Shown here piece after piece: positions 59,526 through 63,949 of a stretch of 64,000 bases of DNA; the first letter of the stretch is position 1; each line of letters begins with the position of its first letter. The DNA comes from Sphingomonas sp. LY29 (lineage in GTDB: Bacteria > Pseudomonadota > Alphaproteobacteria > Sphingomonadales > Sphingomonadaceae): the NCBI RefSeq assembly GCF_035593985.1, contig NZ_CP141587.1, positions 744,001 through 808,000 of the forward strand, in the 5' to 3' direction. Below the pieces are notes generated by a model. It searched no databases and was not told the DNA's origin. It saw nothing but the letters and a program-made list of their open reading frames with translations. Made by a program: the position numbers and the translations under genes.

Positions 59526-59590
59526 CTTTGGAGATGGTCACGCATTGGCGAACACCCTGTGTCGCCGACTGCTAGATCAAAATGGAAAAA

Positions 59591-59636
59591 TGGCGCGCCC
59601 GGAACGATTCGAACGTCCGACCCTCAGATTCGTAGT
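59591..59636 (-). other. Attachment site (attL): 3' half of tRNA-Arg(ACG)
   Basis: On the minus strand this reads from the anticodon loop CTACGAA through the T arm (GGACG-TTCGAAT-CGTTC) to the acceptor CGGGCGC, then GCCA. The 5' half is missing: the five bases before the loop (CCACA) no longer pair with TCTGA. Such 3' fragments are left when a tyrosine integrase uses the tRNA as attB. The intact tRNA should be at the other end. Confidence 0.85.
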
Positions 59637-59695: not shown

Positions 59696-60793
59696 CTAGC
59701 CGAGCAACTCGCGCTGCGCCGCCGCCGCCAATGCCGCGTCCCGGTCATCGTCTTTCAGCAAATGCCCGTAGCGGTCGATCGTCAGTTGGATCGAGCCATG
59801 TCCCATCCACGTCTGGAGGCGCTTCAGGTCGATGCCCTGATGAATCCAGGCGCTGGCCGCAGCGTGACGCAAGGCGTGGAGCCCGTACCGCTTAAGCTCG
59901 GCTTTCACGAGCATCGGAAGGAATTGCCGGGTCATGAAGTTCTTATAGTTCAGGACACCGCCACCAGCGGCGGGGAACACCAGATCCAGCTTGGAGATCG
60001 GACACCGCAGCTTCCACGCCTTCAACTCGGACACCAGCGCCGGCGGCAGGGGAACCGACCGATGCGCGGCCTCACTCTTGGGCAGGCCAATCTGGTCGAA
60101 GCGATCGGCGCGCTGGGTGACGGTGACGATCCCCTTCTTTAGATCGAGGTTGCGCCACACCAACCCGCGTAGTTCGGACGCGCGAAGCCCGGTGAAGATC
60201 GCTGTCATGACGAACGGGCGCAGTTCCGGCCCGCTGGCGTCCAGCATCGCCTTAAGCTCCACCTTGCTCGGGATCTCCACCTTGGACTTCTCGCGGGCGG
60301 CCTTTGGAAGCCTGACGCCCAAGGCGACGTTCTGCGCGACCAGCCCCCGGCCCTGCGCCTCTTTCAGTATCATCCGCAGATGATGGAGCGCTCGCGCCGC
60401 CGTGGGCCTAGAACGGCTCTCCAGCAGCTTGTCGGCGAATATCCGCACCGCTGGCATCGTTAGGCGACTAAGCCGCTCAGCGCCGATTAGCGGGGCGATA
60501 TGGCGATCGAGGATGGCCCGATAATTGTCGACCGTGGCGCGCTCGCGATCATCGGCTTCCACACGGGCAATCCAAATGTCGCCGGCCTGCTTCACGGTGA
60601 CGCTTTGACTATCGGCTGTGTGGACGCCCTGGCTCACTTGCCAAGCGGCTTGAGTCGACCACGCTTCGGCATCCTTTTTACGAGCGAACTGCTTGGCCCG
60701 CCGTTTCCCGCCGCTGTCGCGATAGTCGACGAGCCACGCCTGGCGCTCCTCGCCCTTACCGTCTGTCCAGACCCGCTTACGGATTGCGGTCAC
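59696..60793 (-). CDS. Tyrosine recombinase/integrase
   Basis: 365 residues from GTG 60793, which overlaps the stop of the upstream regulator by 4 nt. SAM-like core-binding domain (about 70-165) and catalytic domain with Arg in TGLRASELRG, H-x-x-R in HALRHAAAS, His in WMGHGS and the nucleophile Tyr in DRYGH. It recombines the element into the tRNA-Arg fragment 60 bp away. Start choice replaces a longer upstream frame that lacks conserved residues. Confidence 0.93.
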   Translation of the reverse strand: MTAIRKRVWTDGKGEERQAWLVDYRDSGGKRRAKQFARKKDAEAWSTQAAWQVSQGVHTADSQSVTVKQAGDIWIARVEADDRERATVDNYRAILDRHIAPLIGAERLSRLTMPAVRIFADKLLESRSRPTAARALHHLRMILKEAQGRGLVAQNVALGVRLPKAAREKSKVEIPSKVELKAMLDASGPELRPFVMTAIFTGLRASELRGLVWRNLDLKKGIVTVTQRADRFDQIGLPKSEAAHRSVPLPPALVSELKAWKLRCPISKLDLVFPAAGGGVLNYKNFMTRQFLPMLVKAELKRYGLHALRHAAASAWIHQGIDLKRLQTWMGHGSIQLTIDRYGHLLKDDDRDAALAAAAQRELLG

Positions 60794-61380
60794 GTGGAGA
60801 GTCCCCACTCGACATAGGCTATGCTGACTTCCTCTTGCTGCTCGTCCACGACTTCCATCGTTGCTTCCACAAGGTCCCAACACATTTGAAAGAGATCGAC
60901 GACTGCTAATCGGGGATGACCATAAACGTCGGAGAGGAAGCGCCTCTCGAGATCGGCAGGCGTTCCTATCATCACGGCAGTACGGGATTTTTCGAAGTCC
61001 CTGCCCTCGCGAAGATCAGTGAGTCCACGTGGGTCGAAGTACAGGAGAGTTTTGTTCTTCCTGAGGAGGCCGCCGCGGCCCTTGCTCGCGATGCGACGCA
61101 TTTCTGGCAAGACGGCTGGCTCTGCCGACGACAAAAGCAGCACGATGCGTTCTGGCGTCATGCCCAGCTCTAAGAACTCGAACGCCACACCTAACATGAT
61201 GACATGCTCCGGCTGATATTCGGCGGCTTTGCCCTTCCCAGTGTTCAAGCCATTCGGGAAACCGCGTCGCTGAAAGTCCTTTACGCGGGACTGAAGCGCG
61301 GAAACTTTCCCTTCCGAGACGCCATGGATCGTCGCAAGAATGGCACCGACTTGGGCGAAAGTTAGCGGAAAAACAGCCAC
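60790..61380 (-). CDS. Regulator of the element, helix-turn-helix (MerR-like N-terminus)
   Basis: 196 residues from GTG 61380, chosen because GGAG lies 5 nt upstream. The first 90 residues (LTFAQVGAILATIHGVSEGKVSALQSRVKDF ... EHVIMLGVAFEFLELGMTPERIVLLL, given here in parts) look like a MerR-type winged helix. The rest has no clear family. It overlaps the integrase start and is divergent from the excisionase-like gene, the position of a phage-type repressor. Confidence 0.7.
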   Translation of the reverse strand: MAVFPLTFAQVGAILATIHGVSEGKVSALQSRVKDFQRRGFPNGLNTGKGKAAEYQPEHVIMLGVAFEFLELGMTPERIVLLLSSAEPAVLPEMRRIASKGRGGLLRKNKTLLYFDPRGLTDLREGRDFEKSRTAVMIGTPADLERRFLSDVYGHPRLAVVDLFQMCWDLVEATMEVVDEQQEEVSIAYVEWGLST

Positions 61381-61391
61381 ATAGGCTCCGG

Positions 61392-61409
61392 AAGTGAGGA
61401 TCGTCACTT
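61392..61409. promoter_or_regulatory. Operator-like inverted repeat near the element regulator
   Basis: AAGTGA-GGATCG-TCACTT, 12 bp upstream of the regulator start. It shares CGTCACTT with the stronger palindrome at 61442-61465. Confidence 0.5.
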
Positions 61410-61441
61410 TCTTGTTGCACGAAGGAGGCGGAAAGTCTAGG

Positions 61442-61465
61442 TAGTGGAAGTCGTCACTTCCACTA
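61442..61465. promoter_or_regulatory. Perfect palindromic operator in the divergent control region
   Basis: TAGTGGAAGT-CGTC-ACTTCCACTA: 10-bp arms, perfect. It lies 18 bp before the excisionase-like gene, overlapping a possible TATAAC -10. Confidence 0.7.
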
Positions 61466-61483
61466 TAACGGAGTACTTGGAAA

Positions 61484-61657
61484 ATGCTTGCTGATGATCT
61501 TCTCGCCGGTGCCACGGCCGCCGCGGCGTACATCGGGGTGACCCCCCGCGCCGTTTATCATCTGGTCGAAGCCGGGAATCTCCCAGCGATCAAAAAGGGC
61601 CGTCGCCTCTACTTTCGCCGGTCTGAACTGGAAGCCGCGTTCCGCGCCGCCGCCTGA
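61484..61657 (+). CDS. Excisionase-like helix-turn-helix protein
   Basis: 57 residues, below the usual gene-finding length. MLADDLLAGATAAAAYIGVT followed by PRAVYHLVEAGNLPAIKKGRR and LYFRRSELEA matches the small MerR/excisionase (DNA-binding domain of the AlpA/HTH_17 type). It has the position and size of Xis next to a tyrosine integrase. A GGAG (61470-61473) precedes the ATG by 10 nt. Confidence 0.82.
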   Translation: MLADDLLAGATAAAAYIGVTPRAVYHLVEAGNLPAIKKGRRLYFRRSELEAAFRAAA

Positions 61658-62527: not shown

Positions 62528-62739
62528 TGGACGCGCCCGCTCCCAAGGTGTTGCTGGCCGAGGCTGAAGACGGCATGGGCTATGCGGTGACGGTCCTGCC
62601 CGCCCAGGACGTGGGCCACGATCGTCAATTCACCAACTATCTGCAGGCGCGGACCTACGCCCGCCTGCTTCGCTTCGGACACGGCTGGCAGCTTGTCGAT
62701 CGCTGTGACGAGCGGACGAGGAAGGCCGCTAATGGGTAG
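62527..62739 (+). CDS. Hypothetical protein of the element
   Basis: 70 residues. Start ATG 62527 (or GTG 62524) overlaps the previous stop (TGATG). It overlaps the next gene by 8 nt. No family recognised. Confidence 0.6.
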   Translation: MDAPAPKVLLAEAEDGMGYAVTVLPAQDVGHDRQFTNYLQARTYARLLRFGHGWQLVDRCDERTRKAANG

Positions 62740-63418
62740 GGCCAAGCCCCAAGCGGCACACAAGGCTGACACGCGAGCGGCGGGCTGGGTGGGCCTGCCG
62801 CAAGCGGTGGCAGACTCCGCGGCCTATCTAACGCTGTCACCGCTGGAGCGTGGTGTTCTTTTAGAAATCCTTCGCCGCTTCAACGGCTACAATAACGGCG
62901 ACATTGCCATCACCTATGAGGAGATTGGCGAGCGACTGAAGGGTGCGAACCGATGTCGCCTGAACAACGGGCGCATTGCGCTCGCGGTCGCGAAGCTGTG
63001 GGACCACGGACTAATCGATGAGCCGACCGAACAGTCGTGGGCGCAGCGTCGAGCAAGGCGCTATCGGCTCACATTTATCACGTCCGGCAAGGCCCCACCC
63101 TACCGCCAGGCGACGAACGAATATCTCAAGTGGACGCCCGCCAAAGCAAAAAACGACGGTAACACATCGTCACCAAGAGGTGCCCCAACTGGTGACGCAA
63201 CATCACCACAGGGTCAAAGCGCTGGTGACGCCCAATCACCAAGCGGTTCAGAAATTCGCAGTTTTGCGTCGGAAGGTTCAGCCGTTTCTGGTGACGCCCG
63301 ATCACTGGTTATATCTAAGCCATACCAAGGCCGGGAAGTTGGGGAAGCAGACCAACTTCAGAGCCCCTCTAAAAAATTGGCCCCCTCACCTGTCTCTGAC
63401 AACAAGGAGGCCGCATGA
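62732..63418 (+). CDS. Winged-helix replication-initiator-like protein with internal repeats
   Basis: 228 residues. Residues about 15-120 look like a winged helix (GVLLEILRRFNG, ITYEEIGERLKG, LWDHGLIDEP, ARRYRLTFI). The second half holds an imperfect 11-residue repeat (SPRGAPTGDAT, SPQGQSAGDAQ). The DNA of this part contains four 19-bp partial palindromes (63157-63307), the arrangement of phage lambda O-type initiators with the origin inside the gene. Initiator role inferred, not proven. It overlaps the previous gene by 8 nt and the next by 4 nt. Confidence 0.7.
   Translation: MGRAKPQAAHKADTRAAGWVGLPQAVADSAAYLTLSPLERGVLLEILRRFNGYNNGDIAITYEEIGERLKGANRCRLNNGRIALAVAKLWDHGLIDEPTEQSWAQRRARRYRLTFITSGKAPPYRQATNEYLKWTPAKAKNDGNTSSPRGAPTGDATSPQGQSAGDAQSPSGSEIRSFASEGSAVSGDARSLVISKPYQGREVGEADQLQSPSKKLAPSPVSDNKEAA
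63157..63307 (+). repeat. Iteron-like array (4 partial palindromes) inside the initiator-like gene
   Basis: 19-bp units start at 63157, 63190, 63223 and 63289 (spacing 33, 33, 66 bp). Copies 2 and 3 read TGGTGACGCAACATCACCA and TGGTGACGCCCAATCACCA; copy 4 has CGATCACTG at its end; copy 1 is CGGTAACACATCGTCACCA. Each has GGTGAC and GTCACC/ATCACC arms around a variable centre. At a period of 33 bp (about three helix turns) all copies face the same side. Confidence 0.8.
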
Positions 63419-63609
63419 CCCAGCCAGTAGAGGCAGGGGGCCATGATCGCCTCCCCGTGAGCGATTCTCGCGACCGACACCCAACCAAACTTCGCGCGTC
63501 CACGGTTGAGCGCCCGACCCCCCACGCATGCGAGCATTGCCTCGCCGCCTACTCATTCCAGCCGCGCAAAGGTGTCTGCCGAAATTGCAGGCACCGCTCT
63601 CCTCGTTGA
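63415..63609 (+). CDS. Small zinc-finger-like protein of the element
   Basis: 64 residues with a C-x-x-C pair twice (ACEHCLAAY, VCRNCRHR). ATG 63415 overlaps the initiator-like stop by 4 nt. Its 3' end runs into the junction with the receiver remnant at about 63587, so its natural C-terminus may be lost. Confidence 0.55.
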   Translation: MTQPVEAGGHDRLPVSDSRDRHPTKLRASTVERPTPHACEHCLAAYSFQPRKGVCRNCRHRSPR

Positions 63610-63949
63610 TGACGAGGAATTAGTGCGTAGCAGTACACGGGAAATGTTGACTGATCTCGGTTTTTCCGTTGTCGAGGCGGCTTCCGCGGAGGAGGCGCTG
63701 CACCTGGTCGGTCAAGGCCTCGAGCTGGATCTTTTGGTGACGGACCATCTGATGCCCGGCATGAGCGGAACGGAACTCGCTTGAGATTTGATTAGCCGTC
63801 AGCTGAACGTGCGAGTTCTCGTGATTTCCGGATACGCGGAGGACGAAGGCGTTGCGCCAGACTTGCCCCGGCTCGTTAAACCATTTCGACTTGCGGATTT
63901 AGCGTCGATACTGAGTGAAATGACGGGAGGTCGTGCTCCGCAGGCTTAG
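63587..63949 (+). pseudogene. Receiver-domain remnant with in-frame stop
   Basis: TALLVDDEELVRSS ... LVTDHLMPGMSGTELA, stop TGA at 63782-63784, then in the same frame DLISRQLNVRVLVISGYAEDEG ... RLVKPFRLADLASIL to TAG at 63949. The phospho-Asp (LVTDHL), Thr/Ser and Lys (KPF) sites are visible. Such receivers usually sit at the C-terminus of hybrid histidine kinases. The TGA replaces a codon, probably Arg CGA. No kinase domain or start codon precedes it, so it is a fragment. Confidence 0.8.

Follow-up and report, generated by a model that had tools for sequence, protein, structure and literature searches.

A 64,000-nucleotide stretch of DNA from Sphingomonas sp. LY29 (NZ_CP141587.1, positions 744,001 to 808,000; hereafter the window) contains a gene for a winged-helix protein whose coding sequence carries an array of short dyads at multiples of 33 bp. 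The array raises the question whether this periodicity serves the protein, a regulator or, as proposed in a preliminary description, replication from iterons within the initiator's own gene. The results presented here indicated that the gene at 62732-63418 very probably encodes the replication initiator of an integrative element, similar in kind to lambda O and pSK41 Rep, with its origin in the DNA that encodes its own linker.

A repeat search of the window returned a single family of four 20-nt copies, starting at 63156, 63189, 63222, and 63288 (spacing 33/33/66) and 70-85% identical to the reference copy, which confirmed that four units lie 33, 33, and 66 bp apart in one coding sequence. The units, earlier described as 19-bp and partly palindromic, are best taken as imperfect 17-bp dyads with 6-bp arms and a 5-bp centre, in a register picked to favour symmetry (Table 1). 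With at most two mismatches, GGTGACNNNNNNTCACCA matched the window 10 times, and eight of these matches represented the four array sites on both strands; 100 shuffles gave 3.49 ± 1.95 matches, with one shuffle reaching 10. Exact matches to GGTGACNNNNNNTCACC occurred twice in the whole 2.46-Mb genome, both inside the array. The 33-bp self-similarity of the gene was reached by 2 of 1000 synonymous recodings that preserved its protein.

Homologous proteins at E ≤ 0.01 numbered 80, query included. Genomes with a match, including LY29 itself, were 33 of 397 in the family (E ≤ 1e-3), 13 of 71 in the genus, and 33 of 396 in the order (E ≤ 1e-10); contig collections added nine and five loci, and none of 72,556 plasmid records had a match at E ≤ 1e-3. 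The 82 matches were reduced to 62 distinct genes, 29 of which, window gene included, were classified as close (E < 1e-30). A search for the same repeat period in homologous genes had been suggested in the preliminary description, and all 29 close genes contained three units at 33-bp spacing (32/34 in L021, owing to a one-base shift of its second unit). In the fixed register, 81 of 87 units (three per close gene) had at least four of six arm pairs complementary; units below this value occurred in L013 (two), L021 (the shifted unit, with no complementary pair in that register), L026, L028, and L032.

The four units of the window gene share the frame of the open reading frame (ORF), as had been noted before, and encode the similar peptides GNTSSP, GDATSP, GDAQSP, and GDARSL. 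This arrangement, and a period of 33 bp that is a multiple of three, would also be expected if an 11-residue linker motif (GDAxSP) were the selected feature and the DNA repeats and palindromes its by-products. Sequence comparison of homologues largely refuted this explanation, which is now very improbable. Unit 2 of L021 lies in another frame and reads LVTNRHQ, whereas its other units read GDDSSP or GDNVSP. Similarly, L024 and L016 have LLTTSQR in unit 4 instead of ADHVSA and similar peptides, while all 17 bases of that unit equal those of another unit in the same gene. L027 and L029 agree on this unit-4 frame but share a clade with L024 and L016, so that the frame evidence amounts to two lineages. 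In L011 (Qipengyuania nanhaisediminis), the initiator frame stops short of iteron 4 and of the A+T-rich box that follows it, both of which are still there; a frameshift or a shortened protein is possible. Among distant homologues, all listed dyads of L040 and L034, three of four in L042, and two of four in L057 and L058 lie 3' of the stop codon (array score reached by 2/100 shuffles for L034, 1/100 for L058, and 0/100 for L040, L042, and L057), as if the origin were able to sit either in or behind the gene.

Codon usage and arm covariation pointed in the same direction. Serine was encoded by TCA in 70 of 95 cases in the units, as compared to 10 of 155 across the winged-helix portion, and glycine by GGT in 47 of 54 versus 42 of 287 cases (related loci counted separately). 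Across 28 loci (L033, whose register is one dyad off, was left out), 107 of 126 positions in 21 distinct arm pairs were complementary. When right arms were permuted among lineages, with relatedness ignored, a mean of 79.8 and a maximum of 97 were obtained, and the observed value was reached in 0 of 20,000 permutations; the innermost arm pair was complementary in only 12 of 21. With each protein left unchanged, synonymous recoding attained the observed repeat score in at most 18 of 1000 cases in every one of the 29 loci. Peptide motifs vary among lineages while dyads stay, in classes that include GGTGAC/GTCACC, GCTGAC/GTCAGC, GGTTCC/GGAACC, GGTAAC/GTTACC, GGTGCC/GGCACC, and GCTACC/GGTAGC. A 29-tip tree of winged-helix domains, in which 7 of 26 inner branches had good support, required 11 or more half-site changes when half-site labels were assigned manually and three classes were merged. 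Because of the frames, the units past stop codons, the codon skew, and the arm covariation, the conserved entity is the DNA rather than the peptide, and conservation of the iterons at the DNA level is nearly certain from these comparisons. Homologues that keep the protein repeat and lose the DNA repeat had been named in advance as evidence against an iteron array; the opposite was found.

Distant homologues carried dyads at other spacings (54/57, 42/45, and 22/53/45), many single loci being not individually significant (33 loci with 30 codon shuffles each; 11 chosen loci with 100 mononucleotide shuffles each). A very regular array of GGTGCTGTGAGAGCACC with 22/53/45-bp spacing was seen inside the initiator frame of L081, an order-level relative.

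A fourth unit was located in 28 close genes, 57-78 bp past the third and followed by an A+T-rich box. Third-to-fourth spacing was 57 bp in five loci, 60 bp in one, 66 bp in 11, 68 bp in five, 69 bp in two, and 78 bp in four. Placing the unit at its best match in a 17-position search and anchoring it on the box (29 or 30 bp before CCAT) gave the same result for 27 loci; for L009, the script gave a misplaced 70 bp and 78 bp was taken from its sequence before the box. The six values, read together, suggest phasing, in steps of about one helical turn. The slot around 63256, initially interpreted as a degenerate unit, instead belongs to a conserved spacer: 33 bp past the third unit, none of the 29 close genes had another (criterion, 13 or more of 18 positions matching).

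The box starts about two bases past the fourth dyad and has the consensus GCTTATAAGTAAGCCATA (28 sites, 21 distinct); CCAT served as the anchor in finding it, which makes these four letters invariant by design. The distance from the iteron-4 start to CCAT is 29-30 bp in 28 close loci (27 placed by script, L009 by hand), and L067, the 29th, had neither CCAT nor box. The interval 20-30 bp past the iteron-4 start contained 81% A+T versus 35-53% in other bins (28 loci), a difference that depends partly on the CCAT anchoring, and the A+T-rich stretch beside the last iteron is only about 10 bp long. Since only 4 of 33 distant homologues scored for the box at a level that no more than 2 of 200 shuffles attained, the box is claimed for the close family.

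This layout also bears on the possibility that the dyads are operators, or an immunity or incompatibility locus, bound by the initiator or by a neighbouring MerR-like or AlpA-like regulator, and not an origin. Dyads are typical of dimeric regulators and both helix-turn-helix (HTH) regulators are encoded nearby. However, the sites lie approximately 430-575 bp inside the gene, the A+T-rich box stands at one distance past the last dyad, replication initiators are among the family's profiles (see below), and the whole layout matches those of lambda ori and pSK41. An operator function is accordingly improbable, and the array is likely an initiator-bound origin.

An AlphaFold2 model of the product of 62732-63418 showed an N-terminal winged helix, as previously proposed, followed by a low-confidence linker. 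The assignment is at fold level, and the fold is common to many families. In this model, the linker encoded by the iteron region is probably disordered, a further point against selection for a peptide repeat. Among 57 family members, 23 matched phrog_270 (replication initiation) and 18 matched phrog_186 (DnaD-like loader) at E ≤ 0.01, while three O-like profile families matched 13, 11, and 10 members at the same threshold. The window protein itself showed a weak match to the DnaD-like loader profile (E 0.0085). Phage_rep_O (PF04492) had no match in the window protein at E ≤ 1 and weak matches in two of the 57 relatives (best E 0.0049), RepA_N (PF06970) matched neither the window protein (E ≤ 1) nor the 57 relatives (E ≤ 0.01), and HTH_36 (pfam13730) was matched by six of the 57. 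Crude sorting of the C-terminal tails of 80 proteins by regular expressions gave 23 zinc-finger-like, nine WW, two with both, and 46 short or other tails, a hint that C-terminal modules may be swapped between family members. Several homologues end in a Cys-rich module that belongs to the initiator itself, and the small CxxC...CxxC protein encoded directly downstream in the window may be equivalent to it.

Based on these observations, the winged-helix domain would bind the four 17-bp dyad iterons, probably as a dimer, at sites written into the DNA that encodes the initiator's own flexible linker. The 33-bp spacing, about three helical turns, together with the distant fourth site could then give a bent nucleoprotein complex that would melt the A+T-rich box adjoining iteron 4; replication proteins of the host or of a helper phage may load there after excision. 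The array is, on this basis, a putative origin.

The lambda origin, located in gene O, comprises four inverted repeats of 19 bp to which O dimers bind, plus an A+T-rich region of 40 bp (PMC5043065; PMC7466680); for extra iterons of Shiga toxin (Stx) phages, the encoded residues were suggested not to contact DNA (PMC7466680). The LY29 locus likewise has four imperfect inverted-repeat iterons in an initiator gene, and the short A+T-rich stretch next to them is a candidate counterpart of the lambda region. It differs in its 17-bp dyads (19-bp iterons in lambda), 33-bp spacing, distant fourth unit, and box of about 10 rather than 40 bp, as well as in the absence of a Phage_rep_O match and of an adjoining P-type loader gene: no helicase-loader (P-like) profile was seen among nine other window proteins scanned. 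The RepA_N initiator of pSK41 combines a winged-helix N-terminus, four Rep boxes central in rep, a dispensable linker, and a variable C-terminal domain, and the N-terminal domain of the hybrid pPR9 Rep is pfam13730 (PMC5703833). The window gene shares with pSK41 Rep a predicted winged-helix N-terminus and four dyads within the gene, and the HTH_36 matches in relatives recall pPR9 Rep. In contrast to both, the family lacks a PF06970 match and occurs in alphaproteobacterial integrative elements, not plasmids. The family thus looks as if it were built like lambda O and pSK41 Rep while meeting neither domain definition. Satellite RepA of the Vibrio cholerae PLE is also a single winged-helix-type initiator with iterons, but belongs to the RepA_N family and acts at an origin in a non-coding region (PMC7145576). 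In described Gram-negative phage-inducible chromosomal islands (PICIs), two iteron sets flank an A+T-rich region and the origin lies 3' of rep in a pri-rep arrangement (PMC6092414), whereas the dyads studied here lie inside the initiator gene. Neither this initiator family nor sphingomonad PICIs were described among the matches listed in a search of open-licence PMC titles and abstract starts, which is not proof of absence.

Beyond the window gene, the close family can be tentatively read, at somewhat less than an even chance, as having a two-part origin in sphingomonads. The dyads would be repeatedly rewritten without change to their layout or to a near-invariant CTTATAnnTAAGCCAT box, whatever the frame and sometimes outside the gene. 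A disordered linker would offer a nearly free coding track on which specificity could switch and incompatibility be escaped, and the box may be recognized by a host or helper factor that stays the same. An origin inside an initiator gene is of a known kind; the family, the site switching, and the box appear new to us. To our knowledge, such origins have been studied in few models. About two dozen natural pairs of initiator and iterons, alike in layout and diverse in specificity, are available in the family, and co-evolution of winged-helix initiators and their sites should therefore be readable from sequence and testable in vitro. The family also predicts where replication would start in a group of sphingomonad satellites, in which one DNA stretch may act as origin and coding sequence together.

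Table 1. Features of the initiator module and of the island that carries it (window coordinates unless a contig is given).
Feature	Position	Strand	Sequence or basis
Initiator gene, 228 amino acids	62732..63418	+	winged-helix N-terminal domain (residues ~24-113), linker encoded by iteron region, short tail
Iteron 1	63158..63174	+	GGTAACACATCGTCACC, 17-bp imperfect dyad
Iteron 2	63191..63207	+	GGTGACGCAACATCACC
Iteron 3	63224..63240	+	GGTGACGCCCAATCACC
Iteron 3 to iteron 4 spacer, conserved (the "degenerate slot")	63241..63289	.	start-to-start 57-78 bp in 28 close genes
Iteron 4	63290..63306	+	GGTGACGCCCGATCACT
A+T-rich box, candidate melting/loading site	63309..63326	+	TTATATCTAAGCCATACC, 2 bp past iteron 4
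Small CxxC...CxxC protein	63415..63609	+	overlaps initiator stop codon
attL, 51-bp copy of tRNA-Arg(ACG) 3' part	59586..59636	.	att repeat comparison
Tyrosine integrase of the element	59696..60883	-	profile search, synteny
MerR-like regulator, recurrent initiator neighbour	60790..61533	-	MerR_1 only below cut-off, E 0.022
AlpA/excisionase-like HTH protein (HTH_17)	61484..61657	+	profile search, synteny
Intact tRNA-Arg/attR	G000:C1:837344-837420		33.8 kb from attL

The initiator gene is part of a 33.8-kb tRNA-Arg island (G000:C1:803586-837392; L004 and L005), which begins with the tRNA-Arg 3' copy, the integrase, the MerR-like and AlpA-like genes, small ORFs, the initiator, and the small Cys-rich ORF. 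In a synteny sample of 32 locus rows (29 distinct loci, some ending near the initiator), an integrase at least 45% identical to that of the window was found upstream of the initiator in 16 rows (13 distinct loci), an AlpA-like gene in 17, and a MerR-like gene in 16; the same-genus relatives L088, L089, L100, and L102 were without a window-type integrase. Repeats of 49-53 bp at tRNA genes were detected in four of five genomes tried, including G061 (49 bp, tRNA-Gln) and G290 (53 bp, tRNA-Arg); in G196, no repeat above 12 bp was found in the flanks compared.

Terminase, capsid, and portal-type genes were present behind the initiator in six distinct close relatives (L010, L012/L101, L015, L016, L017, and L018), the protein taken as portal in L016 having no PHROG match. 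L012/L101, L010, L015, and L018 carried HNH, large terminase, capsid, protease, portal, and one or two connector genes within approximately 10-11 kb. In G432 (L012/L101), this set lies within a single att-bounded element of 10.9 kb between 51-bp tRNA-Met repeats, its head genes being assigned by similarity to L015/L018 proteins, most of which were PHROG-identified. The G432 ORF list, inspected for ORF size with neither a tail-profile scan nor a search for a small terminase, contained no tail-sized unknown. Integrative elements with phage head genes, together with DNA-level conservation and the "replication initiation" and O-like profiles, supported the original proposal of lambda-O-like iterons inside an initiator gene.

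The integrase, MerR/AlpA-type regulators, and replication gene are also features of Gram-negative PICIs and capsid-forming PICIs (cf-PICIs), and the head-gene sets of L012/L101, L010, L015, and L018 resemble those of cf-PICIs, as defined in PMC10690885, in gene content. A uniform cf-PICI picture is weakened by a tape-measure-like protein in G290, a neck-type protein in the G061 element, and the lack of a detected head gene in the window's own element, in contrast to cf-PICIs. The G290 element of approximately 10.4 kb (L094 2115-12524/L116), bounded by tRNA-Arg, encodes the initiator, a major capsid protein, and an 881-amino-acid tape-measure-like protein, and had no terminase, portal, or HNH match with L015/L016 queries; judged by these genes, it does not fit the cf-PICI pattern.

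Whether the LY29 island is active is uncertain, because no packaging gene was detected in it: searches with 11 head and packaging queries gave no match at E ≤ 1e-4 in L004 and L005, the loci that cover the island. The array could be a true iteron origin by descent that is now a dead relic, in a passive island that lost its right-hand genes. This scenario, which is compatible with the array being an initiator-bound origin, is a real possibility though a rather doubtful one. Besides the missing packaging genes, it is favoured by a truncated response-regulator frame right past 63609 that contains an in-frame TGA (63782-63784). Against it, the integrase, regulator, and initiator ORFs are all open, the att repeats are identical over 51 bp, and the dyads show no visible decay.

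The response-regulator receiver frame (63506-63949) lies just past the initiator module, and its ORF starts inside the previous gene; it may represent a truncated copy that sits at a recombination junction. The island also holds further response-regulator-like ORFs, as well as ORFs that by their first residues are ligase-D-like and YciF-like and are presumably stress-related cargo.
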